This document shows positions 2,508 to 27,152 of a DNA stretch of 27,152 nucleotides, one piece after another. The position numbers were made by a program, and so were the translations under genes. The DNA is from Candidatus Aerophobota bacterium (lineage in GTDB: Bacteria; Aerophobota; Aerophobia; Aerophobales; JAGGXI01): assembly GCA_021163155.1 (NCBI GenBank), contig JAGGXI010000012.1, positions 1 through 27,152 of the forward strand, read 5' to 3'. Position 1 is the stretch's first letter. Each line of letters begins with the position of its first letter. Below the pieces are notes generated by a model. That model was not told the DNA's origin, made no database searches, and saw only the letters and a list, made by a program, of their open reading frames with translations.

Positions 2508-2909
2508 TTGATGATAATGCAGAAGACGCTAACTCCCACTATGGAAGACTATTTAGAGCTCATAAGTAACTTAAAAAAGAGAAACCGGGTAGTTAGAGTA
2601 AAAAACATTGCTCAAGAATTAAAAATAAAAATGCCCAGCGTGAGCGAAGCTTTAAAATTATTAGTTAAAGAAGGGTTAATAATACACAAGAAATATGGAA
2701 ATATAGAATTGACTGAAAAAGGTAATAAATTAGCGGAAGATGTTAAATCTCGTCATCAGACTATTTTTAAATTTTTAAATGAAGTTCTGGGTATAAATCC
2801 CAAAACTGCTAATAATGATGCTTGTAAAATGGAACATTCTATTAGCACAATTACCCTGGAAAGATTAATAGTATTTTTAGAATCTATAAAATCGTCTTAC
2901 CAGGAATAA
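2508..2909 (+). CDS. DtxR/MntR-family metal-dependent transcriptional regulator
   Basis: A 133-residue regulator with an N-terminal winged helix (LTPTMEDYLELI, then recognition region IKMPSVSEALKLLVKEGLI) and the short dimerisation domain. It lacks the C-terminal SH3 domain of DtxR, so its size is MntR-like. Metal-site positions look mixed: Asp14 and Glu17 resemble MntR D8/E11, while CKMEH near residue 105 has Cys-x-x-Glu-His as in iron-sensing DtxR/IdeR rather than Glu-x-x-Glu-His of MntR. It lies 19 bases after the feoB permease gene and likely controls the palindrome at 293-310, closing a feedback loop. ATG 2517 (residue 4) is an alternative start. Iron rather than manganese sensing is inferred from the operator and neighbours. 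Confidence 0.85.
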   Translation: MMIMQKTLTPTMEDYLELISNLKKRNRVVRVKNIAQELKIKMPSVSEALKLLVKEGLIIHKKYGNIELTEKGNKLAEDVKSRHQTIFKFLNEVLGINPKTANNDACKMEHSISTITLERLIVFLESIKSSYQE

Positions 2910-2923
2910 ACTTAGGAGAAGAT

Positions 2924-3592
2924 ATGGGGATAAAGGATAATGTGAAACATTTATTAAAAGAGATTCCAGCTAATGTTATTCTTGTTGCTGCAGCAAAAAC
3001 AAGAACACCTGAGGAGATACTTGAAGCTATAGATGCAGGGATTGAGATTTTTGGGGAGAATTATATTGGAGAGGCGAAAAAAGTATATACAGTAATAGGG
3101 AAAAAAGCAAAATGGCATTTTATCGGGACACCTAAAACACAAAAACACGACCTTCTAAGAAGGAAAACATTAGAGATGTTTGACATGATAGAAACTGTTG
3201 ATTCGTTTGAAATAGCAATAGAGGTTGATAAAAGATGCGCCCAAATTAACAAAGTGATGCCAATATTAATTGAGATCAACAGTGGTAGAGAGCCTCAGAA
3301 ATCAGGAGTGTTACCAGAAAAGGCAATCGAATTAATAAAGGAGATTTCGGGTTTTCAAAATATAAAAATAGTAGGGCTTATGACTATGGGACCCCGTTTC
3401 GGAAATTCAGAGGATGCAAGACCGTATTTTAAGAAAACAAAGGAAATATTTGAGAAAGTAAAAAAAATAGCCATCTCCAATGTGGAAATGAAGTATCTTT
3501 CTATGGGAATGAGTAACTCTTACCGTGTTGCTATTGAAGAAGGGGCAAATGTTGTGCGAATAGGGACAAAGATTTTTGGACTACGCAAATAA
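2924..3592 (+). CDS. yggS: YggS/PROSC-family pyridoxal phosphate homeostasis protein
   Basis: A 222-residue protein with the single-domain TIM-barrel PLP fold (alanine racemase N-terminal family). Seen: the PLP-binding Lys25 in VAAAKTRTPEEI; FGENYIGEA; WHFIGTPKTQK (usually WHFIGxLQxNK, so a slightly altered loop); a LIEINSGREPQKSG strand; GLMTMGP; and the C-terminal SMGMSNSYRVAIEEGANVVRIGT phosphate-binding region. These proteins bind PLP without known catalysis and buffer free PLP and amino-acid pools. A clear AGGAGA ribosome-binding site precedes ATG 2924, 15 bases after the regulator stop, so it may be in the same transcript as the feo genes. Length matches the family. Confidence 0.9.
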   Translation: MGIKDNVKHLLKEIPANVILVAAAKTRTPEEILEAIDAGIEIFGENYIGEAKKVYTVIGKKAKWHFIGTPKTQKHDLLRRKTLEMFDMIETVDSFEIAIEVDKRCAQINKVMPILIEINSGREPQKSGVLPEKAIELIKEISGFQNIKIVGLMTMGPRFGNSEDARPYFKKTKEIFEKVKKIAISNVEMKYLSMGMSNSYRVAIEEGANVVRIGTKIFGLRK

Positions 3593-3603
3593 GTGCTAAG
3601 AAT

Positions 3604-4446
3604 ATGAAAACATATCTTGATTGTATACCCTGTTTTTTTAGACAGGGTTTAACAGGAGCTCGGTTATTCACAAAGGATAAGGAAAAACAGAGAAAAATTT
3701 TAGAAGAAATCGCCAAAGAAATTCCTTCAATTTCTTTAGACAATACTCCCCCTCAAATGGGAAGAAAAATTCATTTAATTATCAAAAAAACAACAAACTC
3801 TCCCGACCCCTATAAAAAAATTAAGGAAAAATATAATAAAATAGCTTTAAAATTATACCCTCGATTAAAGAATGAAGTAAAAAAAGCTAAAGACCCTCTT
3901 CTTACTGCAATAAGGGTAGCTATTATAGGAAATGTTATCGATTTTGGAGCGCCTTTTCATCTAAACCTTGAGCAAGAAATAAAAACAATTTTAAATCAAG
4001 AATTTTCTATATTTGACTATGCTAAATTTAAAAAAGCATTAAGCAAAACAGAGGAAATTCTGTATTTGGGTGATAATTCTAGCGAAGTTGCTTTTGACAA
4101 AATATTAATAGAACAGCTAAATAGAAAAGTTACCTATGTGGTAAGAGAAAGACCAATAATAAATGATGCTACCTTAGAGGATGCCTTATTTTTCGGGATG
4201 GACAAGATAGCTAAGGTTCTCTCCTCCGGATGTGATGCTCCAGGAACTATTCTTTCTCTCTGTTCAAAAGAATTTATAACCTATTATAACTCTTCTGAAT
4301 TAATCATCAGCAAAGGACAGGGTAATTATGAGAGCTTGTCTGGAGAAAATAGCCCCCTTTTTTTTCTTCTTAAAGCGAAATGCCCGATAATAGCAAGAGA
4401 TTTAGGATGTAGGGAAGGAGATATAGTATTAAAAAGTATAAAATAA
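3604..4446 (+). CDS. DUF89 / ARMT1-like metal-dependent phosphatase-family protein
   Basis: A 280-residue member of the DUF89 family. The N-terminus MKTYLDCIPCFFRQ has the CxxC (Cys7, Cys10) typical of the bacterial/archaeal subfamily. The metal/phosphate motifs are LGDNSSEVAFDKILIE (around residue 155), RERPIINDATLEDA, and a DAPGT loop. Studied relatives are Mn/Co/Ni-dependent phosphatases proposed to remove damaged phosphometabolites; the real substrate here is unknown. It starts 11 bases after yggS and ends before a hairpin that may terminate the transcript. Length is normal for the short, CxxC-bearing subfamily. Confidence 0.8.
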   Translation: MKTYLDCIPCFFRQGLTGARLFTKDKEKQRKILEEIAKEIPSISLDNTPPQMGRKIHLIIKKTTNSPDPYKKIKEKYNKIALKLYPRLKNEVKKAKDPLLTAIRVAIIGNVIDFGAPFHLNLEQEIKTILNQEFSIFDYAKFKKALSKTEEILYLGDNSSEVAFDKILIEQLNRKVTYVVRERPIINDATLEDALFFGMDKIAKVLSSGCDAPGTILSLCSKEFITYYNSSELIISKGQGNYESLSGENSPLFFLLKAKCPIIARDLGCREGDIVLKSIK

Positions 4447-4619
4447 TAGAACTATACAGAGCATTACTTATTTGTCCTGGAACTGATCTAAGACTATGCA
4501 GAGCATTACCCATTGGGTAGGGGAGGCTTTAGCCTTCCTTTTATTTTTGGCGATTAAACTCGCTTCTCTAAGCATCTTGAGAAGATTAATACGGGAACCA
4601 CTTACTTCAGAAAGTTAGT
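4447..4619. other. Gene-free stretch with a direct repeat and a REP-like hairpin
   Basis: No coding sequence is visible between the DUF89 gene and thrC (4447-4771). The left half contains an imperfect 20-base direct repeat (17/20 identical) at 4451-4470 and 4493-4512, beginning actat(a/g)cagagcattac, 42 bases apart, followed by the REP-like hairpin listed separately. I looked for a TPP riboswitch (CTGAGA and ACCTGATCTGG cores) and did not find one; CTGATCT at 4483-4489 is a chance partial match without the partner motif. Confidence 0.5.
4515..4547 (+). terminator. REP-like hairpin followed by T-rich tract; probable terminator of the upstream transcript
   Basis: GGGTAGGGGAGGCTTTAGCC and the next four bases form a stem with GGAGGCT pairing to AGCCTTCC (one bulge). 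TTTTATTTTT follows at 4539-4547, as in an intrinsic terminator. The first 24 bases match 22574-22597 on the opposite strand at 23 of 24 positions, so this is a dispersed repeat that may have been recruited as a terminator. The GTAG just before the palindrome resembles the foot of REP elements handled by RAYT transposases. Confidence 0.6.
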
Positions 4620-4647
4620 TTGACAGAAGGGGTATTTTATTTATAAT
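4620..4647 (+). promoter_or_regulatory. Consensus sigma-70 promoter of thrC-thiC
   Basis: TTGACA (4620-4625), 16 bases, TATAAT (4642-4647): both boxes match the consensus exactly. Transcription would start near 4654, leaving a leader of about 118 bases before thrC. The leader is A-rich and has no riboswitch core that I recognise. Confidence 0.7.
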
Positions 4648-4771
4648 TAAACAGATACCAAACTTTAGTAATAGGTAAGCTCTCCTAAAAAAAGCAGAAT
4701 TAAAGGATTAAAGGGGAAAGAGAAGATAATTTTAGAAAGGCTAAACTATTACAAGCTTTAAGGAGAATTTA

Positions 4772-7351: not shown

Positions 7352-8218
7352 TTAAATATCCAGCAACCACGTAGGATTTTCAATCATCATAATCTCTAAA
7401 TCTTTCTTACAGATACCAATGTCACTGAGACATTGAGCAAATATTCTGATTGTCTCAGGAGGAGTTGATTTGGCAGGTCGTCCCGCATCACTGGAAATAA
7501 TGAAATGTTCAGCACCTATTTCTTGAATTGTATCTCTATAAACATAAATGTTTCCATATCCTGGAACTGGATAAACTGTACCAGCACAGAGCTCCATTAT
7601 TGCACCCAATTTAGCCAATTTCTTTAAGGACTCAATGTTTAGATCGGGTGGCTTCCAATAAGGATGGGTTATAACAACCTTCCTATTGCCAATCTCTCCG
7701 GCACTTTTTACTAATTCAAATATCTCCGATTTTGATAAGTGTGAGGTGCCTATTATAACATTATATTTATGTGTTAATTCAAGTACTGTTATTACATTTT
7801 TGTCTAATTTTCTATCTGTAAGTATAGTAATCCCTTCGGTTTCTGTCGAAAAACCTGCACTCATATAACCATAAGTTCCTGTTGAACCATAAACTTTTGC
7901 GTGTGCTGCAGAATCCATCGTAGGCATCCAGACCTCTTTTGCTCCAAGTTTCAGTGCAGCTTCTACTGCAATTGGATTAATCCCCCCAACTGCTCTATTT
8001 AAAACTATACCTCCAAAAACTTTTATCCCGGGTACCTGTCTACTGGTATGATAAGCTCTACTCACAGTGCTCTCATGATGAGATTTAAACATTATCGCCT
8101 GCATTTCAGCATCTCTTGCAACTTTAGCAAGATCAACATCGTCTCCCATTCTTTCCATTAGAGAAGGAAAAGCATGGATATGAAGATCACATGCATTCTT
8201 CAAATTTATTTTTGCCAT
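7352..8218 (-). CDS. DUF6282-family protein, PHP/amidohydrolase-like metal hydrolase fold
   Basis: A 288-residue cytoplasmic protein. The start CDLHIHAFPS (His13, His15) is the HxH motif of PHP/amidohydrolase TIM barrels. Other likely metal-site elements are FKSHHESTVSRA, ELTHKYN, GTSHLS, VITHPYW and the late ISSDAGRP with a conserved Asp. The overall pattern matches proteins now classed as DUF6282, whose substrate is unknown. GGGGAGAG lies 7 bases before the ATG. It is the last gene of the long minus-strand block that includes the CooS-like cluster, 128 bases after the PLP enzyme. It could hydrolyse a C-N bond of a compound processed by that block; this is inference only. Confidence 0.7.
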   Translation of the reverse strand: MAKINLKNACDLHIHAFPSLMERMGDDVDLAKVARDAEMQAIMFKSHHESTVSRAYHTSRQVPGIKVFGGIVLNRAVGGINPIAVEAALKLGAKEVWMPTMDSAAHAKVYGSTGTYGYMSAGFSTETEGITILTDRKLDKNVITVLELTHKYNVIIGTSHLSKSEIFELVKSAGEIGNRKVVITHPYWKPPDLNIESLKKLAKLGAIMELCAGTVYPVPGYGNIYVYRDTIQEIGAEHFIISSDAGRPAKSTPPETIRIFAQCLSDIGICKKDLEIMMIENPTWLLDI

Positions 8219-8346: not shown

Positions 8347-9456
8347 CTATTGCGATTTCCCCCGAGCCAGGACGGGCCACTTATAGACAACGCAGCCTTT
8401 TTTTATTCCATAGATATAGTCATACAGATTGCAGGTAGGACAAGCATGATTGGGAATTATTTCAATTTTTTCTCCGATATAGAAATTATAACCTGGTGGA
8501 GAGTTAAATACACCATGCTCATCGGACACCTCACTTAGATGAACTTCAGGTAGAGCTTTCAATAGACCATAACCCTGAGTTCGGCCCATGCCTGTGCTAC
8601 GAACAAAAGCAGTGAGAGCTTTAACGCCAGCATCGATCACTACATTTCCTGATATAGGCCGGTTCACAACTGTAGCAAGAACCGTGAGAGCGCAACGTTT
8701 ATAACTCCCCAAAATATTTCCTTGAGCAGCGTCTAAAAATATATAGGTACCGGGTCGAATCTCTGTGATGCCGGAGAGAACATCACCAACAAGGAGAGCC
8801 GGTGTTGCCCCTACACTAATCTCTTCCACATGGACATCAGCCTGCCGCAGCAATCTTGCAGTTGTTAGCATATTTTCCTGGCTATGACGAAAAACTTGCT
8901 TGATCTCAGCAACATTCTCTGCTTTGTAACTGTGACCTTCGTGTGTAAAAATACCTCGAAGCTTAAGGGTGGGCGACTGGAGGATAAGCCGTGCAAGGTC
9001 CAATACCTGTTGGCCTGGTTTAACCCCTGTACGACCATACCCTGTATCTACATCAATAAGTACCTCAAGTGGCCGTGCTTCAGAAGCAAAAGCGGTTGCT
9101 AAAATACTTACATGTTTGGGGTTATCTACTCCTACCGTAATGCGCACTTGCTGTGCCAATTTACGCAAGCGTTTTAGCTTGATGGGACCAACAATCTCAT
9201 TGGCAATAAAAATATCGTTAATTCCGGCTGCAGCCATCACTTCCGCCTCTCCCAGCTTAGCCACTGTAATTCCTTGTGCCCCCAGTTCAACTTGTCTTTT
9301 AGCCAAAGCAGGTGTTCGGTGCGTCTTTGTGTGAGGTCTGAGCTTTACCCCAGTCATATTCGCCTTTCTCTGACCCCAGCGAAGATTTTCCTCCATCACG
9401 TCTACATCAACCAAAAGCGCGGGTGTATCCACTTCCTCTATACCAGAGTGCTTCAC
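8347..9456 (-). CDS. DSD1-family PLP enzyme (D-serine dehydratase / D-threonine aldolase-like)
   Basis: A 369-residue protein with the alanine-racemase-type TIM barrel followed by a beta domain. The PLP lysine is Lys44 in RPHTKTHRTP. Later motifs are AKLGEAEVM, VDVDTGYGRTG, TPALL and the C-terminal NHACPTCN, whose His-x-Cys pair (about 337 and 339) matches the Zn ligands of eukaryotic-type D-serine dehydratase. Relatives act on D-threonine, D-serine or beta-hydroxyaspartate. The start is GTG 9456 with AAGGTG upstream. By eye the gene has clearly higher G+C (high 40s percent) than its neighbours (mid to upper 30s), which suggests recent transfer. The exact substrate cannot be read from the sequence. 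Confidence 0.8.
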   Translation of the reverse strand: MKHSGIEEVDTPALLVDVDVMEENLRWGQRKANMTGVKLRPHTKTHRTPALAKRQVELGAQGITVAKLGEAEVMAAAGINDIFIANEIVGPIKLKRLRKLAQQVRITVGVDNPKHVSILATAFASEARPLEVLIDVDTGYGRTGVKPGQQVLDLARLILQSPTLKLRGIFTHEGHSYKAENVAEIKQVFRHSQENMLTTARLLRQADVHVEEISVGATPALLVGDVLSGITEIRPGTYIFLDAAQGNILGSYKRCALTVLATVVNRPISGNVVIDAGVKALTAFVRSTGMGRTQGYGLLKALPEVHLSEVSDEHGVFNSPPGYNFYIGEKIEIIPNHACPTCNLYDYIYGIKKGCVVYKWPVLARGKSQ

Positions 9457-9588: not shown

Positions 9589-10233
9589 TCAGTATGTATG
9601 TCTACACCAGAAAGGTGACATTTTACTTAACAATCCTGATGCCCTTTCTTGATTAAAGACCCCGCAAACGCATGGTTTAGCCAATTCTATCCCTGCTTCC
9701 TCTACAGTCTTTTCTCCTTTTTTTACCTTAAGAAGCATATCTTTAACTAAATTAGGAGCTACCATACCATGACCACACATAGTTGTTATCTCCCGAATAT
9801 CCTCATCCGGGAGATACTCCCTTTTTCCATGAATCCCTAAGGATAAATTTATAGAATGGGGCTTAATGTCAAGCTCCCTGGCTATTCTCTCAATTTCACT
9901 AATGAGTCCACTCACAGTTATTGAAATACCAAAATTTTCTTTAACAAGCCTCCTTAAAACTTCTTTTAATTTCTCCCTATTAGAAAATAAACATCGTGGT
10001 CGTGAACGGTCATTAATGGCTTTTTTGACTTCTTCAGCCGTGACACCTGTAAAAATATTTCCCTTTTCGTAACCACCATAGTTAGCTGGACCAACTTCAA
10101 ATATAATATCAATTATACGCTGTAGCTTTCTGAGGGCTCCTTTATCATTTATTCCCTTCACTGGGGTAACCAAAAAGGGAAAATCATCTTTTAATGTATC
10201 TTCCGAGCCTTCTCGGTGTAGGGTATGAGTCAT
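9589..10233 (-). CDS. Unrecognised Cys-containing protein paired with the ferredoxin-like gene
   Basis: A 214-residue soluble protein with no family that I can name. Visible: an N-terminal FLVTPVKG strand; VGPANYGGYEKGNIFTG; a RPRCLFSN segment; a helical middle (LISEIERIARELDIK) and a Cys-rich C-terminal third with TTMCGHGMVAPNLVKDML, then KPCVCGVFN and a final FWCRH. The CGHGM and CVCG motifs could hold a metal or Fe-S cluster. The ATG overlaps the TGA of the ferredoxin-like gene (ATGA, 10230-10233), so the two products are probably made together and may form a complex. It reads as an accessory or enzymatic partner of the upstream redox genes. Confidence 0.6.
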   Translation of the reverse strand: MTHTLHREGSEDTLKDDFPFLVTPVKGINDKGALRKLQRIIDIIFEVGPANYGGYEKGNIFTGVTAEEVKKAINDRSRPRCLFSNREKLKEVLRRLVKENFGISITVSGLISEIERIARELDIKPHSINLSLGIHGKREYLPDEDIREITTMCGHGMVAPNLVKDMLLKVKKGEKTVEEAGIELAKPCVCGVFNQERASGLLSKMSPFWCRHTY

Positions 10234-10961
10234 TCTTCTTCTCCTTGTATTCTTCGGCCTAAGCCAAGGTTAATTTTAGCGTTCTTTCTGAGAGAAAAAC
10301 CTTCTTTCTCAATTACTTCTCTTTCGGGAATCTCTAAGTTATGTTCAAAACACGTAATCAAATCTAAACTGAACACAGTATCTATTTTTTTAGCAATTTG
10401 TTTAATTGTCTTTAAACAAGCACTTAATTGGTTCCTTTTGATTTTGAATTCTAAGATAGCTGAAAGAACTCTCTCTTTTTTAAGCTCTTCTTTCAACTCT
10501 CCTGTTTTTTTGTTAGTTATTAAGTTGAAGACTGGATTTCGTTCTTCAAAATTTGTAAAACCTGCTTCGATTAAAGTCTCGATTGCTTTTTCTATATCCT
10601 CCATCCAGGCGCCTACGCTCGGGCGACCCATCTCAAGAGCAATTCCTATTTCACCAGGTTTGTAACGTTTCGTAACATCATTAGTTTTAACTTCATCAGT
10701 ACCCCGCCCAGGAATTCCTGTTTCTGCATGAGTAGTAGCAGGATCACCAAAAAACTTCCTTGCGGAGCGAGGAAATTCGAAAACATTGGGTGATTCATAG
10801 ATAGCGTCTACAGGACAAACTTCCACCCTTAAGCAAACCCCGCACTCAAGACACTTATTCTGGTCAATTACACTTCTCCCTTCCTCAAATCTTATACACG
10901 CAGCTGGACAATAAGGTTGACACCTTCCGCAACCGACACACTTTTCGGCATCTATTAGCAC
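10230..10961 (-). CDS. Two-cluster ferredoxin fused to an unrecognised C-terminal domain
   Basis: A 243-residue protein. Residues 1-55 form a 2[4Fe-4S] ferredoxin with Cys8, 11, 14, 18 (CxxCxxCxxxC) and Cys37, 40, 43, 49 (second set with a CX5C end). The remaining 190 residues are unfamiliar: TGIPGRGTDEVKTNDVT, then GEIGIALEMGRPSVGAWMED, an alpha/beta region and a final INLGLGRRI. That region is well conserved-looking (Gly/Pro-rich loops) and may bind a ligand. The GTG start abuts the TAA of the FAD/NAD oxidoreductase gene with no gap, and the 3' end overlaps the next gene by 4 bases. Most likely an electron-transfer enzyme subunit acting with the oxidoreductase; the reaction is unknown. Confidence 0.7.
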   Translation of the reverse strand: MLIDAEKCVGCGRCQPYCPAACIRFEEGRSVIDQNKCLECGVCLRVEVCPVDAIYESPNVFEFPRSARKFFGDPATTHAETGIPGRGTDEVKTNDVTKRYKPGEIGIALEMGRPSVGAWMEDIEKAIETLIEAGFTNFEERNPVFNLITNKKTGELKEELKKERVLSAILEFKIKRNQLSACLKTIKQIAKKIDTVFSLDLITCFEHNLEIPEREVIEKEGFSLRKNAKINLGLGRRIQGEEE

Positions 10962-12414: not shown

Positions 12415-14226
12415 CTAAGGTTTTAAGAATCGGCTTACTTTACTCACCATCTTTGAGGAGCTTATTCCCTCAGGAGAAAGAATCAAATTTGCCCCAAATA
12501 TATTTCCTAATTTTTGAGTGAAGAAATCGTAGACAAGCTCACTTCCACCAACCGGCGCAGGAGAACCAATTAAAGTAGGTATCCCCAGGCTAACTGTCCA
12601 TATAGCTTCACATATGGCTGGCGGCTGGCTAATTTCCGGGAACAGAGCAACTACTGGAATTTTGCTTTGCTCCGATGATGCATTTTTCTCTACTTCTTTA
12701 ATAATTTCTACTCCCCGTACTAGCTCAGAGCATGAGCCTATATGAAGAACAGGAGGAAGAGATATATTCTCTGCCTTAGACAATTCCCCAAGGGTCAACT
12801 TTAATTCCTGACCACAACATATATTGGTATTAGCCGCATCTAATAAACCAGCTTTAGCCAAACTCTCTGCAGCACAACCGGCTGCAAGACATAGTATATT
12901 TTGTTTCAAAAGAGAACGGACAATTTCAATAGTTTTTTTATCCTGAGATTCCCTAACACTATTACAACCCCCTATCAAGGCAATTCCTGGAATTTTTCTT
13001 TCTTGAATTTTTTTAGACAGAATTTGTGAAGAGGCCTTTCCTATAGAAATTTCCTTTAACGCATTTTGCTTAATGTTGGGTATCTCAATCTGGTATTTTC
13101 TTCTGTTTGTAAAATTTTTGATGGCTTCCTTCACTATACTTTTTGCCAGGCCTTCGTTATAATCCACAGATCCCTGGATATAAAACAATTTTGTATGAGA
13201 GTCAAGGGCAAGCCTTCTAAGACTTGTAATTGAGCATCCATTACCTACCACTAATAAATCAATAACTCCTGTTAAGAAACTCACCTCCTGGGAGTTGTAA
13301 TTTGTAATAACTTCAATTTCTATACCTCGCGGATTGTAACGGGGAATAAGATTGTAAAGCTTCACACCTTTTATAGCTCCTTGCTGAACAGCTTTCTCCT
13401 GTAAGTTTTCAGCAAAACTTTTTATTGCTTTGAGTAAAGAGAAAGGAATAAAACCTTCTAACAAAATATTCACCTTTTCTTCTTCAAGTTTCCCTATATT
13501 TACTTCTTCTATCCTAGGAGAAGAGGTGCCCAACAGCAATTCTTCAACACGTACAGCTAACCATTGGGAAATATATGCCTCTAAAGCTACCCTTATCATA
13601 CCTTTAATAATATCGATTGGAGAGGCAACAACTTGAGAGCTAATTTTTGATTGTAAATCTAGATATGAGCGAAAGGGAGCGAAAGGGAGGTAACCCTGGG
13701 TGTGCAAACTTTTCACTACTTCCTTCCCCAAGGACTTCTCTTTAAAAGGTAAAGATAAACTGCCATTTCTATTCAATATCATAATAATTTTTTCACTAAT
13801 TTGCTTCATCAATAATTGAGTTTCTTTATCTTTAGTTTCTAAACCTAAATCCTCAGCAAAAACTCTTAGCTTTTCTTGATCGATATTTGAGAAATTTTTA
13901 CTGCTAATTTGATTTAAGAAAGAAGATAAGCTTAAAATTCGTTGGAAATCATGTGAGGCTCCGGAAAGTATAATCTGGGCAAATCTCATAGCTACTAAAT
14001 CATCGCCGTTTTTACCACAAATGGTTTGACTAAACTTTTCATTAAACGGATGAATTCTGCAAGGTCCCTGCCAGCATGCTTGACAACAAAGAGATAATTC
14101 TCCAAATCCGCAAAGAGGTTGTTGGTTTTCGTACCGATCCCAGCATAAAGCAACTTTTTTTTGGTTTGCTTTGGGTAAAAAGTAATTGACCGCTGGATCA
14201 GTAGACTTTCTGGTTATGGATTCCAT
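12415..14226 (-). CDS. CooS-like anaerobic CO dehydrogenase family protein with incomplete C-cluster site
   Basis: A 603-residue CooS homologue (usual length about 630-640). The N-terminal ligands of the D and B clusters are intact and even share the numbering of the Carboxydothermus CODH-II: Cys39, Cys47, Cys48, Cys51, Cys56, Cys70. Four C-cluster Cys are kept: Cys331 (VGNGC), Cys421 (IGGCN), Cys451 (AAGCAA) and Cys499 (IGSCSE). But the GHxP His is replaced (EGFIP, Phe259), the CCTGNE Cys is absent (there is no Cys at all between 70 and 331), and the catalytic Lys of SEKA is not present (QPPAICEA). Normal CO oxidation is therefore unlikely. An AAGGAG site precedes ATG 14226. The gene follows the CooF-like gene by 14 bases. 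Confidence 0.85.
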   Translation of the reverse strand: MESITRKSTDPAVNYFLPKANQKKVALCWDRYENQQPLCGFGELSLCCQACWQGPCRIHPFNEKFSQTICGKNGDDLVAMRFAQIILSGASHDFQRILSLSSFLNQISSKNFSNIDQEKLRVFAEDLGLETKDKETQLLMKQISEKIIMILNRNGSLSLPFKEKSLGKEVVKSLHTQGYLPFAPFRSYLDLQSKISSQVVASPIDIIKGMIRVALEAYISQWLAVRVEELLLGTSSPRIEEVNIGKLEEEKVNILLEGFIPFSLLKAIKSFAENLQEKAVQQGAIKGVKLYNLIPRYNPRGIEIEVITNYNSQEVSFLTGVIDLLVVGNGCSITSLRRLALDSHTKLFYIQGSVDYNEGLAKSIVKEAIKNFTNRRKYQIEIPNIKQNALKEISIGKASSQILSKKIQERKIPGIALIGGCNSVRESQDKKTIEIVRSLLKQNILCLAAGCAAESLAKAGLLDAANTNICCGQELKLTLGELSKAENISLPPVLHIGSCSELVRGVEIIKEVEKNASSEQSKIPVVALFPEISQPPAICEAIWTVSLGIPTLIGSPAPVGGSELVYDFFTQKLGNIFGANLILSPEGISSSKMVSKVSRFLKP

Positions 14227-14240
14227 AGTTTTTTTCTCCT

Positions 14241-14801
14241 TTATGATGAGCTTCCTTGCTTATAATCAAACTTAAGCAAACCTCGCCTTATTCCCTCAGA
14301 AGTATCAGAAAATACTTTTTGGATGAAATTACCTTTCTTCTCTTCTAATATTAATTTTGCTGATTGTGTATCACAATAAACTAATGCTCCTGTGGGACAG
14401 GCATCTACACAAACCGGTCTCTCCATATTTACACAAAGATCACATTTGATAATTTTCTTTCTCTCTAACAAAGGAGTTATTGCCCCAAAGGGACAGGTCA
14501 TAACACACATCCAGCAACCTACACATAAATTCTCATCTACAATCACCGGCCCATTATCCTCTTTTCTAAATAATGCTCCTGTGGGACAGGCATTAAGACA
14601 GGGGGCTTCCTCACAATGACGACATTGTAAGGGCAGGTAGCCATCTTTAATGGACTGAACATCTATTCGGGGAAGGGGCTTTGGGTTTTCTCGCACTGCA
14701 CTGTATAAACTCTTACTCTTTGATGAGCGCTCTACAGCACATCTTAACTCACATGTTTTGCATCCAAGACACTTATCCAGGTTCACTAATATTTCTTTCA
14801 T
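14241..14801 (-). CDS. CooF-like four-cluster ferredoxin
   Basis: A 186-residue iron-sulfur protein with sixteen cluster Cys arranged for four [4Fe-4S] centres: Cys11/14/17/21, Cys60/63/68/72 (CRHCEEAPCLNACP), Cys93/96/99/103 (CVGCWMCVMTCP) and Cys120/123/131/135 (CDLCVNMERPVCVDACP). This is the pattern of CooF/HycB/DmsB-type electron carriers. It lacks a signal peptide, so it acts in the cytoplasm. It lies directly upstream of the CooS-like gene and should take electrons to or from it, passing them to the FAD/NAD oxidoreductase. ATG 14801 has GGGGG upstream. It is the likely first gene of the redox cluster. Confidence 0.85.
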   Translation of the reverse strand: MKEILVNLDKCLGCKTCELRCAVERSSKSKSLYSAVRENPKPLPRIDVQSIKDGYLPLQCRHCEEAPCLNACPTGALFRKEDNGPVIVDENLCVGCWMCVMTCPFGAITPLLERKKIIKCDLCVNMERPVCVDACPTGALVYCDTQSAKLILEEKKGNFIQKVFSDTSEGIRRGLLKFDYKQGSSS

Positions 14802-15000: not shown

Positions 15001-15022
15001 ATAAACATTCTATAATGTTTAT
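15001..15022. promoter_or_regulatory. Perfect AT-rich inverted repeat at the tctA stop
   Basis: ATAAACATT-CTAT-AATGTTTAT forms 9-bp arms around a 4-base centre and includes the tctA stop codon (15019-15021). No T-run follows on the minus strand, so it is a poor intrinsic terminator. It may slow read-through from the transporter into the cooF-like gene or bind a regulator. The gap to the cooF-like gene is 217 bases and shows no other clear motif. Confidence 0.35.
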
Positions 15023-16515
15023 TTGCTTGCTCTTTTTCGCATTTTTTTACGAAAGATAGGCAATATCACCATACCTATAGTCATCAGGAAGATAATAAAA
15101 ACGATAGGATCAAGAAAGCTTCTAAACCCATTTATCTGAATAGACCAGTAAAAATTTTTTTCAGCCAATGGCCCAAGGAGTAAAGCCAACAAAAATGCAG
15201 GGACTGAGTAACCGTACCGAGAAAGAAAAGCCCCCAAAATCCCAAATATAACCACTAAAAGCATATCAAATACCATACCACGCCACGCAAATCCACCCGC
15301 TAAGCAAAAAAGACCAATGAGAGGAACCAAAAATCGAGTCGGTACCGAAGTAACTCGAGCCATTAAAAGTACTATAACCAGTCCGCCAACCAAAATAAGA
15401 CCATTTGATATCAGCAATGAAAATAAAATAGCGTAAGCTTCGGCGGCATATTTGGCAAAAAGACTAGGGCCCGGCAGTAAGCCGTGAAGCAGTAGAGCTG
15501 CCAGAACAATCAGGGTAGTTCCAGAACCAGGAATACCAAGAGTAAGCGTAGGCATAAGAGCTCCTCCAGGAACTCCGTTGTTACAAGCATCAGCCGCTAT
15601 AAGACCCTCATAATGTCCTGTGCCAAATTTCTCTGGAGTTTTACTCCATTGCTTCGCCTGCCCATAACTTACCCATGTAGCAATCGCTGCCCCTGTGCCA
15701 GGAATAACTCCTATTATAAAGCCGATAAGCCCGGAGCGTATCACGAGGCCCCAACGACGCAGAGTCTCCCTCATTCCTTCAAAAATAGGTGCATAGCCGC
15801 TAAAGGATTGGCGTCCTTTCTCCACTAACCATTCTTGTTGAACAAGGGAAAATAATTCCGCAAAACCAAACAACCCTAGAATCACCGGAATTAGAGGAAA
15901 TCCTTCATAAAGTTCAAAGAAGCCAAAAGATGATCGAACATAACCTCGTTGAATTTCGGTGCCTACACAGGCAAAAAACAATCCTAATATCGCAGAAAAC
16001 AGCCCCTTTAGAGGAGATTTACCTGTTAATGAACCCACAGCTGTCATACCAAACATAGCCACCATGAACATCTCAGGGGGACCAAATTTAAGAGCATAGG
16101 CACCAGCTATGGGAACTAATACCACGGCAAGACCCGCAGAAAGAAGCCCCCCTAGAGTGGAGGACATAATAGAACACCCAAGAGCTTGAGATGCTTTACC
16201 TTTGCGAGTGAGAGGAAATCCTTCAAGACAGGTGGGAGGATTACTAGGGGTTCCGGGAATATTTAGTAAAATAGCGGGTACCGAGCCCGCTGCCTGAGAG
16301 CCACAAAAACAAGCCATCATGAAAATAACTGCTTGCTCCGATCTCAAATAAATTGTAAAGGGCAATGCCATCGCCAAGAAATTAGTACTATTAAAACCTG
16401 GTATCGCTCCAACAGTAAATCCTAAAATCGTACCTATACCCAACCATAGCAATACATCAAATTGAAAAAGTAAAGATAAACCCGAACTAATTACATCAAT
16501 ACTAGGCAAGTTCAC
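15019..16515 (-). CDS. tctA: Tripartite tricarboxylate transporter large permease, TctA family
   Basis: A 498-residue inner-membrane protein with about 11-12 hydrophobic segments and the typical TctA sequences: GFTVGAIPGFNSTNFLAMALPFT near the N-terminus, SQAAGSVPAILLNIPGTPSN, GFIIGVIPGTGAAIATWVSYG, and GVPGGALMPTLTLGIPGSG. These duplicated Pro-Gly motifs are the signature of the family. It moves a carboxylate together with the TctB and TctC products encoded upstream. The start is GTG 16515, with GGAGG 7 bases before it. G+C is a little higher than in neighbouring regions. The substrate cannot be read from the sequence. Confidence 0.93.
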   Translation of the reverse strand: MNLPSIDVISSGLSLLFQFDVLLWLGIGTILGFTVGAIPGFNSTNFLAMALPFTIYLRSEQAVIFMMACFCGSQAAGSVPAILLNIPGTPSNPPTCLEGFPLTRKGKASQALGCSIMSSTLGGLLSAGLAVVLVPIAGAYALKFGPPEMFMVAMFGMTAVGSLTGKSPLKGLFSAILGLFFACVGTEIQRGYVRSSFGFFELYEGFPLIPVILGLFGFAELFSLVQQEWLVEKGRQSFSGYAPIFEGMRETLRRWGLVIRSGLIGFIIGVIPGTGAAIATWVSYGQAKQWSKTPEKFGTGHYEGLIAADACNNGVPGGALMPTLTLGIPGSGTTLIVLAALLLHGLLPGPSLFAKYAAEAYAILFSLLISNGLILVGGLVIVLLMARVTSVPTRFLVPLIGLFCLAGGFAWRGMVFDMLLVVIFGILGAFLSRYGYSVPAFLLALLLGPLAEKNFYWSIQINGFRSFLDPIVFIIFLMTIGMVILPIFRKKMRKRASK

Positions 16516-16545
16516 GATATCCTCCAGCCAGTTAAATTTAAAAAA

Positions 16546-17025
16546 TTATATGTTAAATTTACCAATGCTGAGTTGCGGCAAAGACATTTTCAGGAAAACT
16601 ATTAAAGCGATGTGCAAAAGGAAGACAGTAATGAATGCAGTAACGATGTTTTGCATCCATTTTTTGCTACCCAAGCCACGAAAAAGTAAAATCAAAAGAC
16701 AAAGATTACTTATGGAAAAACCAAGATAAGGAAGGGCAAGTAGATATCCTATGAAAGCTGATAAAACTAAACCCATTTTTCGTCCCTTTCCCCAGAACCA
16801 AGAGATAGAAAATTTTCTACGATTAGCCTGATCAACCCTTGAGAATACAAATAAAAATAATATCATTATCCATAAGGAACCCATGATAACAGCAATAAGA
16901 ACAGGCCAATAGACAGCGATCCAAGGTAAGTTGATCACTTGAATGAAGTACGCAACAATAAAGGCTAATCCTATCCCGGGAACGATAGCCTCGCCCCAAT
17001 TTATAGCTCTTTTCGGTTTATCCAT
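16546..17025 (-). CDS. tctB: Tripartite tricarboxylate transporter small permease, TctB family
   Basis: A 159-residue membrane protein with four hydrophobic segments, separated by a basic cytoplasmic loop (RVDQANRRKFS), as expected for TctB. Sequence conservation in this family is low, so the call leans on size, topology and position between tctC and tctA. GGAGG lies 8 bases before ATG 17025. The 30-base gap to tctA and 50-base gap from tctC support one operon. Confidence 0.85.
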   Translation of the reverse strand: MDKPKRAINWGEAIVPGIGLAFIVAYFIQVINLPWIAVYWPVLIAVIMGSLWIMILFLFVFSRVDQANRRKFSISWFWGKGRKMGLVLSAFIGYLLALPYLGFSISNLCLLILLFRGLGSKKWMQNIVTAFITVFLLHIALIVFLKMSLPQLSIGKFNI

Positions 17026-17075
17026 TAATAGCCTCCATAGGAATCTACTTGCTCTCCGGTATTTATAATAGAGAG

Positions 17076-18035
17076 CTATTCCATAAGATGTTTATACTTA
17101 TTCCATACACTTTGAAAGCTCTCAACATAAGCATCGCACTTCTCGGGTGACCAATATTCTATAAATGCTGTCATCCCGGTCTTCTTAGCCATTTCCTGTG
17201 TTTCCTTAGATGCAATAGCTTGTTCAAAAGTCTCCACCAATTTTTTATAAGCTTCTGGCGATTTGGTAATTGTGTCTCGTTTTATCATGAAAGCAAATGG
17301 TTCCACTAAATTAGGAAATTGTTTGCCGGTAGCTTTAGACAAAGTAGGAACATCCCAAATTCCAGGCCAGACTTTTTCATCAGTAAAAGATGCCAATGCC
17401 TTGATGAATTCTTTTTTTGACGAAGAAGAGAAATATGGTCCAACGCAGGCATCAACATGTTTACCTGCTAAGGCATTACGAGCTGCGCTTCCACCATCAA
17501 AAGCAACTACTTTACCATTTATTCCAGTAAGTTCAATAAATATCTTGGCAGCTAAGGTACTTACCGCTTTCGGATGTGAAGTAGAGATAGTAAGGGGCTC
17601 CTGCGCCTTTTTGCCAGCTTTGATAAAATCATTAATGGTTTCCCAGGGAGAATCCTTATGAACCAATATAACGTTAGGATCAACGATGAGGTTACCTATA
17701 AAACCGATTTGATCCCAGCTAAATTTGGATATACCTACATTGATGTTCATTGCCTGCATAGCGATGGTGGTCATAATAATAGTATAACCATCGGAAGGAT
17801 TATTCATTATTTCATTGAAGCCTATCTGACCAGAGGCACCCGGAAGATACTTAAACTTAATTGGCTGCCCAAGTGTTTTCTCCCAACCAGCTGCCACTAC
17901 CCGGGAGGATTTATCAAACCCTCCACCTGCCCTTGACGGAATGATGAGAGTAATTGGCTTGTTTGGAAACTCATCTGCTAAAGCAGCACTACTTACTATA
18001 AGCACTGTAATCAAGACAAAAATCAACCTTTTCAT
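17076..18035 (-). CDS. tctC: Tripartite tricarboxylate transporter substrate-binding protein, TctC/Bug family
   Basis: A 319-residue secreted binding protein. The N-terminus has a clear signal peptide (Lys2-Arg3, hydrophobic 4-16, cleavage after ALA at 18-20). Mature protein features fit the Bug family: FPNKPITLIIPSRAGGGFD, PLTISTSHPKAVS, VAFDGGSAARNALAGKHVDA and VWNKYKH at the end. Bug proteins bind small carboxylates such as citrate, tartrate, adipate or aspartate through two ordered loops. GGAGAGG lies before ATG 18035. First gene of the tctCBA operon, itself upstream of the CooS-like cluster. Confidence 0.92.
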   Translation of the reverse strand: MKRLIFVLITVLIVSSAALADEFPNKPITLIIPSRAGGGFDKSSRVVAAGWEKTLGQPIKFKYLPGASGQIGFNEIMNNPSDGYTIIMTTIAMQAMNINVGISKFSWDQIGFIGNLIVDPNVILVHKDSPWETINDFIKAGKKAQEPLTISTSHPKAVSTLAAKIFIELTGINGKVVAFDGGSAARNALAGKHVDACVGPYFSSSSKKEFIKALASFTDEKVWPGIWDVPTLSKATGKQFPNLVEPFAFMIKRDTITKSPEAYKKLVETFEQAIASKETQEMAKKTGMTAFIEYWSPEKCDAYVESFQSVWNKYKHLME

Positions 18036-19353: not shown

Positions 19354-20601
19354 TCACTTCATCCTTTCAATAATAGCCTCACCAAATTTCGAGCACTTTA
19401 CCGGCTCAATTCCCTCCATTAATCGAGCCAGATCATAGGTAACTTTTCTTTCCTTGATCGTCTTGACCATACTCTTCCAGATTAAATCCCCGGCTTCTTG
19501 CCATCCCAGATATTCTAACATCATCACCCCGGATAAGATTAAAGAGCTGGGGTTAACTTTATCCTGTCCGGCATATTTTGGAGCTGTGCCATGAGTAGCT
19601 TCAAATAGTGCAATGTAATCTCCAACATTAGCTCCTGGAGCCATCCCCAGTCCTCCAATTTGAGCAGCACAGGCATCAGAAAGGTAATCGCCATTTAAAT
19701 TAGTTAAAGCCACTACATCATACTCATCTGTTCTGATGAGAACTTGCTGAAACATACTATCAGCAACTCTGTCCTTAATTAGCAATTTACCTTGAGGGAG
19801 TCTCCCCTCATATTTTCTTCCCAATTCTTCCTCAGTGATAGTTTTATCTCCAAATTCTTCTTTGGCTACCTCATATCCCCAATCTTTAAAAGCCCCTTCA
19901 GTAAATTTCATTATATTCCCTTTGTGAACAAGAGTTACACTTTGGTGACCTTTATCGATAGCATACTTAATTGCCTTTCTTACCAATCTTTTACTACCTG
20001 TTTCAGAGATTGGTTTAATCCCTATGCCTGAGTCTTCTCTTATCTTTACTTTAAATTCTTCTTTTAAGTAAGAGATGAGTTTTTCTGCTTCAGTGCTTCC
20101 TTTAGGCCATTCAATTCCTGCGTAAACATCCTCTGTATTCTCTCTGAATATTACTATATTCATCTTCTCTGGATGTACTACCGGACTGGGAACACCGGGA
20201 ATATATCGCACAGGTCTTATGCAAGCATATAGATCGAGTGTTTTTCGCAAAACTACATTTAAACTGCGATAACCTCCACCAATGGGAGTAGTAAGAGGAC
20301 CTTTTATACCTACTATGAAATATTTAATCGCTTCCAGAGTATCTTGAGGTAAAAACTCACCGTATTTCTTTTCCGCTTTCTCTCCCGCATATATTTCAAG
20401 CCAGACTATCTTCTTTTTCCCCTTATATGCTTTATTGATAGCTACATCTAATACCTTTCTTGTTACTTTCATTATCTCAGGCCCTACCCCATCGCCTTCA
20501 ATGAAAGGAATAATAGGATTATCAGGAATAGATAATCTACCTTCTGTAAATTCTATTTTCTTTCCCTCTAAAGGTATTTTAAGTTTATCAAAGTGAATCA
20601 T
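19354..20601 (-). CDS. icd: Isocitrate dehydrogenase, NADP-type
   Basis: A 415-residue enzyme, close to the 416 of E. coli Icd, converting isocitrate to 2-oxoglutarate and CO2. Seen: [12 protein letters not shown], the substrate segment [23 protein letters not shown] with the regulatory-type Ser, the ENTEDVYAG loop, the [11 protein letters not shown] region, NLNGDYLSD and the cofactor site [15 protein letters not shown] plus TYDLAR. Lys-Tyr after HGTAP and the later Tyr/Arg are the NADP+-selecting residues. It ends with TGA. It follows the collapsed aconitase locus by 4 bases and would be transcribed from the promoter at 21334-21361. A 90% identical 79-bp remnant of a second copy lies 1.7 kb away. 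Confidence 0.95.
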
Positions 20602-20605
20602 TATT

Positions 20606-20980
20606 TTATTCTCCGTTAGATTCTCTTCGTTCTAATCGAAAATCTCCATATTTTTGGATATGAGAAAGTAGTCCACCATCATTTAGTATCTTTCTCATTA
20701 CAGAGGGGAGAGGAGGAAAAGTTAGTTGGATGCCTTTGGTTTTATTAAGAATCTTACCTTTTTCTAAATCCACTTCTAACTCATCCCCTTCCTCTATCTT
20801 ATCTGTATCACATTGTATAGCTGGTAGTCCCACATTGATTGCATTTCGATAAAAGATACGTGCAAATGATTTAGCTAATACAGCGTTTATGCCGGTAATC
20901 TTCATAATAGTAGGAGCATGCTCTCTCGAGGAGCCTAATCCAAAATTTTTTCCAGTGATTCTACTATCACCTGATGACAA
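20606..20980 (-). pseudogene. Aconitase/LeuD-type small subunit, N-terminally truncated by deletion
   Basis: About 120 residues matching the swivel-domain subunit of the LeuCD/homoaconitase/aconitase family: GKNFGLGSSREHAP, AKSFARIFYRNAINVGLPAI and a complete C-terminus. Missing are the first 40 or so residues with the NTDxIxP region. The frame begins inside the coding sequence of the large-subunit fragment; the only start is an unsupported TTG at 20980 without a ribosome-binding site. It is out of frame with the large-subunit part. Probably not made, or not functional, in this molecule. icd follows directly. Confidence 0.85.
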
Positions 20981-21276
20981 ATGCCATTACCAATATCTGA
21001 AAGGTAGGCTCCTGTCTTTCGGGCAAATTCTCTTAAAGTAATATGGTCATTAGATAATTCTTTGCGGGGGCTGGGAACAGCATGGCCCATAAAAAGGACA
21101 GTCTTTTCAGGATTTTGAGCTTTTTCTAAATTTATCTTTTGTAGTTGACGAATAGATAACGGACCTGTGCCATCGTGAACCAGACAAATATCTATCTTAG
21201 CTACTACAAAATCTCCTGCTTGGACCTCTTTTCCACAATGTTCGCTGATGATTTTTTCGGCGATTGTTTTACCCAT
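20935..21276 (-). pseudogene. Aconitase/LeuC-type large subunit, only the first ~108 residues left
   Basis: MGKTIAEKIISEHCGKEVQ, VHDGTGPLS, GHAVPSPRKELSN and DIGNGICHQVI are the conserved N-terminus of the LeuC-type aconitase/homoaconitase/isopropylmalate dehydratase large subunit, normally about 420 residues. After GICHQVI the sequence passes straight into the small-subunit gene (SRITGKNFG in another frame) and ends at TAG 20935. About 310 residues including all three [4Fe-4S] Cys are gone. GGAGAAGGG precedes ATG 21276 and the consensus promoter is intact, so the loss seems recent. Pairing with icd suggests that the family member was an aconitase. Confidence 0.88.
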
Positions 21277-21760: not shown

Positions 21761-22440
21761 TTAAATTTCATTTAATCCCTCTATCGACAAGGGATTGAGC
21801 TGAAATTTGCAATATTTTTTTGCGGAATATGGAATATAAATAGAATTTTTTAAAATGTTTAAAATTGCTTGTCTGGAAAAATCTTTACCTCTCGTAGTCT
21901 TTATACCCTTCTCTTTTAAAAGTTTTTGAATTTTACCTAATGATTTTAATCTAAAATATTCTTTAAAAATAAGTTTAACTAAAATTGAATGTTTGCTAAC
22001 AGTTAAAGCTCTATGAGGTTTTTCACCTTGCCATTTAAATCCTAAAGGTGCAATCCCTTTGGAATATTCACCCCTATCAAGTTTTTTCTTAGAGCTGCCT
22101 CAGTCCGAAGTCTTGCTAAGTCAGCTTCAAGCTCTGCTATTCTCTCCCGAGTATGCTTAATAAATTTTTGAGACGGGTCACCAAGGTCGAAAAATTTTTC
22201 CATTACTGTATATAATTTAACATTATGTTTTTTAAATTCCTTCTCAATTATCATTGATAAAGCCAGATTTCTTGCAAGACGGTCCAGTGAATAGGTAAAT
22301 ACTTCACTAATCCCATCAGTTTCTATATCCGCCAGTAATCTATTTAGACCATGTCTGTCCCTTAAACTGCCACTTATACCTTTATCAACATACCATTCAT
22401 CAATCTTCAACCTGAATTTGGCAATTTGAATGATGACCAT
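21761..22440 (-). pseudogene. Serine recombinase, frameshifted and N-terminally incomplete
   Basis: The 5' part carries the resolvase core DEWYVDKGISGSLRDRHGLN and VFTYSLDRLARNLAL, but the N-terminus with the catalytic Ser is not recognisable. The 3' part, in another frame, reads KKLDRGEYSKGIAPLGFKW, then HRALTVSKHS, and SLGKIQKLLKEKGIKTTRGK up to TAA 21761-21763: the 'Recombinase' domain of large serine recombinases. The frame changes in or near the A6 run at 22082-22087. The gene is a relic of a mobile element; no attachment sites were found. Confidence 0.8.
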
Positions 22441-25957: not shown

Positions 25958-27152
25958 TTAGTTTTCCTCTGTTGTTTTTTGAAATATTTTCTTATCCAAA
26001 AGATGACTAAAACCAAGTTGCTGAAGAATCTTTAAGTCCTCAGGTTCTGGATAGATAATCTTTTCTTTAACCCAGCCAAACTTTTCATCTTTAAACCTGC
26101 TGAGTCGGGAATTCTTAAAAGGTTGATAGAGTTTTTTGGAATTGAGAAATTCAGTTTCTTCATGCTTACTTCTCATTCGGGCTAAGTGGAAATTAAGAAA
26201 ATAAGCCAAAACACAGATAGTATACACTGCTCTCACATGTTCATCAAGATTTACCCAGAAGGGTCGGATTTTTAAGAAAGACTTAAGGTGCTTGAAAGCA
26301 TCTTCAATCTTCCTCTTGTTCCGATAGCCATAGATAACCTTTTCTGGAGGAAAGAGAAATTGATCATCTTTTTTCTCAGTATGATTGGTAACAAAACAGC
26401 AGACACCATCAAGAAGGGATGCTTTTCTGATTTTTTCTTCCCTCTTTTTAATAGATACCTGATAACCTATTATCCTTTTAGTTGAGCCATTAGAAAGAGT
26501 TCGGCTAATATTAATCTTTGAAAAACGAGGCTTTTCAAAGAAACGGGTAATCTTTAAGCGGGCAAGTTCTTTTTTGACACTGCCTCTAATAACCTCTTTG
26601 CTTCTTTTGCGCTTAGCTTTTTGAAGCTCTCGGTTAAGTTGAGAGATAAACTTAAGAAAGAGTTCAATTTTTTCTTCTCGATTGCTTCTTTGCTCGATAA
26701 AGAGAGAGAGATTGATTCCTAAGATATAGCGTTTGTCTTTAACCTTTCCTAAATCCTGATAATAGAGAAACTTATCATACCTAGTAAATCCGGGAAGAGA
26801 TTCTATCTCTTTCTTAATGTTCTTTATTGTTAGGTCTTTAAAAAGTTGTAGATTGACTCCTTCAACCTTTGGTATCTGGTTTTTATCTAAAGTAGTGATG
26901 TATTTTAAGCTCTTTTCTTTATTTTTATCTATCAGTTGGAGGTTGTCTTCTGAGACAACTCCTCTATCAAAGACAAGGGAGACGTCCTTAAGATGGAATC
27001 TGTCTCTGCAGGCTTTGACTTTATCTTTTAGAGTGGTTACCTCAGCGGTATTCCCTGGCAGGACATCCCACTTAAAGGGGTAACCATCCTCATTAACCAT
27101 AATAGCAAGGATAACCTGCTTACGATGGGATTGGTTGTTTTTGCTTTTCCCT
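25958..27152 (-). CDS. IS1634-family (IS4 superfamily) transposase, 5' end outside the window
   Basis: An open frame of 398 codons running off the window edge; the in-frame ATG at 27100 is internal, since sequence upstream (KSKNNQSHRKQVILAIMV) still matches the family. Seen: the N2/N3-type segment LVFDRGVVSEDNLQLI with the second catalytic Asp, and the C1 region FPPEKVIYGYRNKRKIEDAF with the Tyr-Arg-Lys-Glu signature and catalytic Glu, followed by IRPFWV, HVRAVYTICVLAYFLNFHL. This is the usual YREK motif of IS4/IS1634 transposases. The visible part has no stop or frameshift, so the element may be active. Terminal repeats were not identified. Confidence 0.85.
   Translation of the reverse strand, partial: GKSKNNQSHRKQVILAIMVNEDGYPFKWDVLPGNTAEVTTLKDKVKACRDRFHLKDVSLVFDRGVVSEDNLQLIDKNKEKSLKYITTLDKNQIPKVEGVNLQLFKDLTIKNIKKEIESLPGFTRYDKFLYYQDLGKVKDKRYILGINLSLFIEQRSNREEKIELFLKFISQLNRELQKAKRKRSKEVIRGSVKKELARLKITRFFEKPRFSKINISRTLSNGSTKRIIGYQVSIKKREEKIRKASLLDGVCCFVTNHTEKKDDQFLFPPEKVIYGYRNKRKIEDAFKHLKSFLKIRPFWVNLDEHVRAVYTICVLAYFLNFHLARMRSKHEETEFLNSKKLYQPFKNSRLSRFKDEKFGWVKEKIIYPEPEDLKILQQLGFSHLLDKKIFQKTTEEN

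Follow-up and report, generated by a model that had tools for sequence, protein, structure and literature searches.

Within the 27,152-nucleotide stretch of Candidatus Aerophobota DNA analyzed here (the window), a gene related to CooS-type CO dehydrogenases (CODHs) encodes a protein that keeps the cysteines of the B- and D-clusters and has lost both ligands of the exo iron of the C-cluster, together with both acid-base residues. We refer to this protein (P0001) and to the nearest relative found for it (L052) as CooS*. That CooS* is inactive toward CO is very probable, judged from sequence and from the published CODH-II C295 variants. Our overall explanation, which we rate at about an even chance, is that CooS* is a maintained pseudo-CODH that would act as the Fe–S electron-transfer or assembly subunit of an NAD(P)H-linked module; the role is the hypothetical part of this explanation.

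The open reading frame runs on the minus strand from 14226 to 12415, opens with ATG and encodes 603 amino acids with zero internal stops, and the initial annotation was right to call it undamaged. In Pfam the protein matches Prismane (PF03063, 225.5 bits; Prismane/CODH superfamily). Its sole NCBIfam match is a full-length one, scoring 337.8 bits, to TIGR01702 (CODH catalytic subunit, CooS type); this score and that of L052 (347.5) do not reach the equivalog cut-off of 478 bits. The solved structures matched by the sequence are exclusively CODHs, with M. thermoacetica AcsA at the top. Fold prediction, which had been suggested as a check, gave an AlphaFold2 model (35 aligned sequences as input, mean pLDDT 89.6) whose superposition on CODH-II covers 593 residues at 2.1 Å, with a Z of 44.9. 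The model thus shows a retained CODH fold, and the six cysteines of the B- and D-clusters that accompany this fold in CooS-type CODHs are all present.

Residue equivalences were taken from an alignment of P0001 to R. rubrum CooS, C. hydrogenoformans CODH-II and 50+ CooS proteins (Table 1). The cysteines of P0001 are at positions 28, 39, 47, 48, 51, 56, 70, 331, 421, 446, 451, 470, 471, 499 and 539; the chain is Cys-free from 71 to 330 and His-free from 176 to 343. The initial annotation had listed the cluster cysteines (39/47/48/51/56/70 and 331, 421, 451, 499) and the Cys-free stretch exactly, and its reading of the site as dismantled is supported by the alignment: the GHxP histidine is a phenylalanine, the cysteine of CCTGNE is missing and its column holds a proline, and the catalytic lysine is gone. 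The lysine had been placed in a segment ICEA, which begins two residues after the actual Lys563 column (PEISQPPA, compared with the canonical PEAMSEKA). The change of the acid-base His93 to aspartate had been overlooked. Of the six ligands of a CooS-type Ni,Fe-CODH (His261, Cys295, Cys333, Cys446, Cys476 and Cys526), only four cysteines are left, and neither acid-base residue (His93, Lys563) is retained; the acid-base residues vary also in CODH clades C, D and G (PMC6344411). His96 (Arg96), Asp219 (Glu) and Ile567 (Glu) are changed as well, and Gln332, Thr474 and Val527 are likewise replaced. Displaced but equivalent residues were sought in the sequence, and the surroundings of 259 and 295 contain neither Cys nor His, those of 536 no Lys.

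Table 1 Features of the CooS* locus, in positions of the window
Feature	Position	Strand	Basis or remark
TctA (15019-16515), TctB (16546-17025), TctC (17076-18035), tripartite tricarboxylate transporter, upstream	15019..18035	-	Pfam; module membership uncertain
CooF-like polyferredoxin, 186 aa, 14 bp upstream of CooS*	14241..14801	-	Fer4 families; 46% identity to L052 counterpart
CooS* (P0001), CODH-fold protein, dismantled C-cluster site	12415..14226	-	ORF, profile, alignment, model
D-cluster Cys39/47 and B-cluster Cys48/51/56/70, complete, codons 39-70	14017..14112	-	alignment
Asp93 at acid-base His93 column	13948..13950	-	alignment
Phe259 at C-cluster exo-Fe ligand His261 (GFIP vs GHxP)	13450..13452	-	alignment, ligand census
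Pro295 at C-cluster exo-Fe ligand Cys295 (LIPRYN vs ICCTGN)	13342..13344	-	alignment, ligand census
Cys331 = C-cluster Cys333, present	13234..13236	-	alignment
Cys421 = C-cluster Cys446, present	12964..12966	-	alignment
Cys446 = CODH-II position 471, rare in canonical CODHs, common to L052	12889..12891	-	alignment
Cys451 = C-cluster Cys476, present	12874..12876	-	alignment
Cys499 = C-cluster Cys526 (Ni ligand in CODH), present	12730..12732	-	alignment
Pro536 at catalytic Lys563 column	12619..12621	-	alignment, ligand census
FNOR, FAD/NAD(P) oxidoreductase, 425 aa	10962..12239	-	nearest NCBIfam model PadH; 42% identity to L052 counterpart
Fer243, two N-terminal ferredoxin motifs and C-terminal domain without Pfam match	10230..10961	-	Pfam
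U214, unnamed 214-aa protein, overlaps Fer243 stop	9589..10233	-	no Pfam or NCBIfam match
PLP-fold enzyme, D-Ser dehydratase / 3-hydroxy-D-aspartate aldolase type, downstream	8347..9456	-	profiles; module membership uncertain
DUF6282 protein, downstream	7352..8218	-	Pfam; module membership uncertain

How unusual these losses are was judged by a ligand census of 69 CooS proteins (P0001 included) from the window's order, a broad bacterial sample and the solved CODH structures. Leaving P0001 and L052 aside, all six C-cluster ligands are present in 60 of the 67 others; six carry Glu for Cys295, the CooS-V type (L098, of this type, matches the CooS-V structure 7b7q with 696 bits), and one, L024, has a lone change of the histidine to Asn. 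None of the 67 has lost more than one ligand, whereas P0001 has lost two and L052 five, and for this reason the loss in P0001 is not attributable to chance. The published CODH classification gives the same picture: the C-cluster His is kept throughout clades B to G, and only the clade-A groups A-4 and A-6 lack both this His and Cys1 (PMC6344411). The gene L024 (positions 2648-4657) is an Anaerolineae CooS with GNEP for GHEP and the other C-cluster ligands complete, which is either a single-residue change or a sequencing error. It was also the sole match, and an otherwise canonical one, in a scan for non-His GHxP patterns through contigs of 84,980 species; this near-empty result is no measure of the rarity of CooS*, because the pattern demands GT..P upstream and would miss L052 too.

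The closest relative of P0001 in searches of about 1,200 whole genomes, and the only other CooS* among them, is L052 (G229:C49:1573-3426), a protein of 617 amino acids from another phylum with 35% identity and 349.7 bits; canonical CooS proteins reached at most 251 bits in that search. The C-site of L052 has eroded further, with Asp for His261, Cys295 absent and Ser/Glu/Ser for Cys446/Cys476/Cys526, so that Cys333 alone is left. Its B-cluster cysteines are complete, and the D-cluster has one of its two, Cys47 being replaced by Ser. In the large phylum of G276, CODH-like proteins scored up to 394 bits, and the ten best that were examined all have intact sites. Viral contigs and plasmids held no close homologues of P0001 (plasmids gave two matches at 23-29% identity). 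Within the window's order CooS* occurs in one of 17 genomes; the 16 others have no CooS* match, and any CooS there is canonical. The window's own genome (93% complete) yielded no other CooS, one separate HCP and no detectable ACS CdhC domain. A misbinned contig was considered and rejected, as its ThiC is 68-81% identical to those in other genomes of the order and its GC content has no sharp step. A C-terminal Prismane-family scrap near a rubrerythrin gene in the same genome (L021:5805-6014, contig C110) looks like a remnant.

A set of 57 canonical CODHs defined 70 near-invariant positions for a comparison of the two CooS* proteins. Of the 11 such positions in the N-terminal cluster region (30-75), 10 are retained in both, compared with 25 of 59 elsewhere (Fisher p = 0.006, the positions being not strictly independent). 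The positions that neither protein retains, among them H93, D219, H261, C294, C295, D330, Q332, T474, V527, D528 and I567, correspond for the most part to residues with a known or expected place in the active site. Conversely, the two CooS* have in common 26 residues that canonical CODHs seldom carry. One of them is the cysteine at CODH-II position 471, and some metal site could therefore still be under selection.

In a joint tree P0001 and L052 group together (SH-aLRT 100) and adjoin clade F, on branches of 2.5 and 1.9 changes per column. Because both branches are long, the placement was repeated for each protein singly after masking the site columns. Both then fall inside the clade-F group of MtAcsA, Rr CooS, CODH-II and CODH-IV, P0001 with support of 97-98 and L052 at the edge of the group with 43. 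Given the latter value, part of the case for a sister relation comes from synteny; joint tree, score gap, gene order and neighbors together indicate it, for what are the only two CooS* sequences known, both on long branches. A clade-F cassette of CooF, CooS(IV) and FNOR, as in the CODH-IV genes CHY0735-0738 of C. hydrogenoformans (PMC4703632), is the natural ancestor of the CooS* locus.

In the window the CooS-type gene is flanked by CooF and FNOR, and L052 lies in a matching CooF-CooS*-FNOR order. The shared order extends to five genes: CooF, CooS*, FNOR, Fer243 and U214. The spacing between CooS* and FNOR differs (a 175-bp gap in the window, a 4-bp overlap at L052), as does the outer context, which comprises TctABC, the PLP-fold enzyme and DUF6282 in the window and GlpC, a Zn-alcohol dehydrogenase and a TRAP-type transporter (the last recognized by eye) in G229. 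For Fer243 the identity between the window and the L052 locus is 49%, and for U214 it is 45%; copies in other genomes reach at most 40% and 36%, respectively. U214 has invariant residues C153-G-H155 and C188-x-C190, and a fold search with it gave nothing at E under 0.001, with weak partial PII-like/ferredoxin-like matches only.

The Fer243-U214 pair, with its invariant Cys/His, is found in seven of 336 genomes beside differing redox genes (pairs at L067, L068, L069, L070, L072, L073, L074 and L075; U214 alone at L071), and neither U214 nor the C-terminal part of Fer243 has a Pfam or NCBIfam name. One such locus (L073:4648-10009, genome G040) has FNOR, an intact-site CooS (776-codon frame), Fer243 and U214 consecutively on one strand; elsewhere the pair lies beside a GlcD-type oxidase (L068) or between bioF- and bioA-like genes (L069; bioA by eye). 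Since it accompanies several kinds of genes, the pair seems to serve as redox partner to several modules. No Rfam or tRNA features were found within the window, and its promoter-like sites are not above chance. At 20606-21276 (minus strand) an aconitase appears as two short overlapping frames, a 113-aa N-terminal catalytic part and Aconitase_C, with the center missing; a deletion or an assembly fault could account for it, and an isocitrate/isopropylmalate-type dehydrogenase (19354-20601) follows immediately downstream. A resolvase-domain fragment (22042-22440, minus strand) and a 380-aa frame (25958-27100, minus strand; IS-type transposase-like by eye, no Pfam match) are signs of mobile DNA on the right side of the window.

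These observations can be joined in one account. CooS* would descend from a clade-F CooS in a CooF-CooS-FNOR cassette, in which CO was oxidized and the electrons passed to CooF, to FNOR and on to NAD(P). With the exo-iron holders (His261, Cys295) and the acid-base pair (His93, Lys563) lost, it would be unable to assemble a normal [Ni-4Fe-4S] C-cluster or to interconvert CO and CO2, and the four C-site cysteines left in P0001 could carry an ordinary [4Fe-4S] cubane. As an Fe–S electron-transfer or assembly subunit it might link CooF and the NAD(P)H-dependent FNOR to the Fer243-U214 pair, in a module that sits beside organic-acid transporters and catabolic enzymes. His261 is one of the two exo-iron ligands of CODH. 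Cys295 binds exo Fe1, and the CODH-II variants C295A/E are Ni-deficient and do not oxidize CO (PMC9311411). As both of these ligands and both acid-base residues are gone, CO catalysis by P0001 is very unlikely.

The initial annotation had proposed that the protein kept its electron wiring and may reduce or sense something else, under selection for a new role. The wiring is complete in P0001, but L052 has the B-cluster and only one D-cluster cysteine; owing to its Cys47 to Ser change, a full B–D wire is not conserved across CooS*. Selection for some role is likely, to judge from two full-length, diverged copies and their synteny. That gene order is kept while the C-site of L052 erodes further argues for a maintained role other than CO oxidation, whereas the new role itself stays hypothetical. 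A reaction at the C-site has become less plausible: with one of six C-site ligands left in L052, a conserved new reaction there is unlikely and an electron-transfer or scaffold role fits better, and the site, nearly erased in a module of unchanged order, seems dispensable for the module's present job. Between such a role and new catalysis at the C-site, we would put the chances of the former at roughly one half.

New catalysis would require a modified Fe–S cluster on C331/C421/C451/C499, perhaps with C446, that reduces another small substrate in the way that CooS-V and HCP act on hydroxylamine. All four cubane cysteines are present in P0001 along with the novel shared Cys446, and CooS-V shows that one ligand change can make the C-site a redox-active Fe/S/O cluster (PMC9311411). 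We nevertheless consider it unlikely, since P0001 has Phe, Pro and Gln where HCP/CooS-V have the ligands His, Glu295 and Glu561, and L052, in a matching module, lacks three of the four cysteines, so that the chemistry would not be common to both. Somewhat less probable again is a redox or ligand sensor, a regulatory pseudoenzyme whose B/D clusters report redox state and control the FNOR module. Regulatory roles have been suggested for CODHs of clades C and D (PMC13056359), and retention of fold and B-cluster without a catalytic site would suit one; however, both cassettes lack a regulator gene, and its close grouping with CooF, FNOR and Fer243 has the appearance of an electron-transfer module. 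Simple decay, a CODH drifting after loss of CO oxidation, would account for the long branches, for further losses that differ between P0001 and L052 and for the presence in a single genome of the order. We regard it as improbable in view of two stop-free, full-length frames with 35% identity in different phyla, the matching five-gene order and the retained N-terminal cluster ligands. A protein that is still a CODH, its C-cluster restored by displaced residues or another metal arrangement, is hardly credible: four of six ligands are left and His92 stands one residue ahead of the His93 column, but the Cys-free and His-free stretches, the lack of Ni and CO activity in the CODH-II C295A/E variants (PMC9311411) and the loss of D219, I567, Q332, T474 and V527 around the site all oppose it.

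If the electron-transfer reading of CooS* is true, erosion of the C-site with the cassette kept would show that the CODH body is workable as electron-transfer machinery without its Ni site. More tentatively, CooS* may represent a new CODH-derived family that has discarded the Ni–Fe site and uses the dimeric Fe–S body as electron hub of an undescribed NAD(P)H-linked complex (CooF, CooS*, FNOR, Fer243 and U214) that supports organic-acid metabolism. The window's genome, lacking another CooS or a detectable ACS CdhC domain, would be a caution against inferring CO metabolism from cooS alone. CODHs are regarded as ancient CO/CO2 enzymes, and in surveys homology decides their annotation. A 2026 marine survey discarded sequences with altered C-cluster ligands (PMC13240472). 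By either practice a lineage such as CooS* would be missed, and the literature searched contained no paper describing the group.

CooS* is not categorically new, because CO-inactive CODH-fold proteins (CooS-V) and the A-4/A-6 loss pattern have already been published. What appears new, from the sequences compared, is a CooS-type clade-F lineage in which both exo-iron ligands are lost, with a relative lacking nearly all C-site ligands, and the conserved five-gene module with its two unnamed families. Among known systems, HCP shares with P0001 the superfamily and four Cys positions, but its structural match to the model is much weaker (Z 25 vs 45), and an assignment to HCP was rejected because the His and both Glu ligands are absent and only the four cysteines remain (equivalences from PMC10502027). 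The bacterial clade-A group A-4 (Inoue 2019) has a loss pattern like that of P0001, with His to Asp, Cys1 to Pro, four cysteines kept and the acid-base His/Lys changed to Gln/Arg (PMC6344411). The A-4/A-6 proteins are, however, Cdh-type and ACS-linked, with E/F clusters and no D-cluster, whereas P0001 is CooS-type with FNOR partners; its full-length TIGR01702 match, clade-F placement and lack of Cys from 71 to 330 exclude it from these groups. CooS-V of C. hydrogenoformans (Inoue structural group D-1) has a CODH scaffold with an altered C-site, as CooS* does, and is CO-inactive (PMC9311411). Yet it keeps the His, has Glu for Cys295 and carries a hybrid cluster, and it is more distant in sequence (structure 7b7q, 24% identity to P0001); with Pro295 rather than Glu, Phe259 rather than His and Gln534 rather than Glu two residues before Lys563, P0001 is not of this type. 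The clade-F cassettes, CHY0735-0738 (PMC4703632) and the related Geobacter GSU2098-2095, correspond to the window in fold, B/D ligands and CooF and FNOR partners, and the window has the CooF-CooS-FNOR gene order of CHY0735-0738. CooS* differs from them in being without His261, Cys295, His93 and Lys563, in having no rubrerythrin, CooC or RcoM adjoining it in the window, and in the addition of the Fer243-U214 pair.
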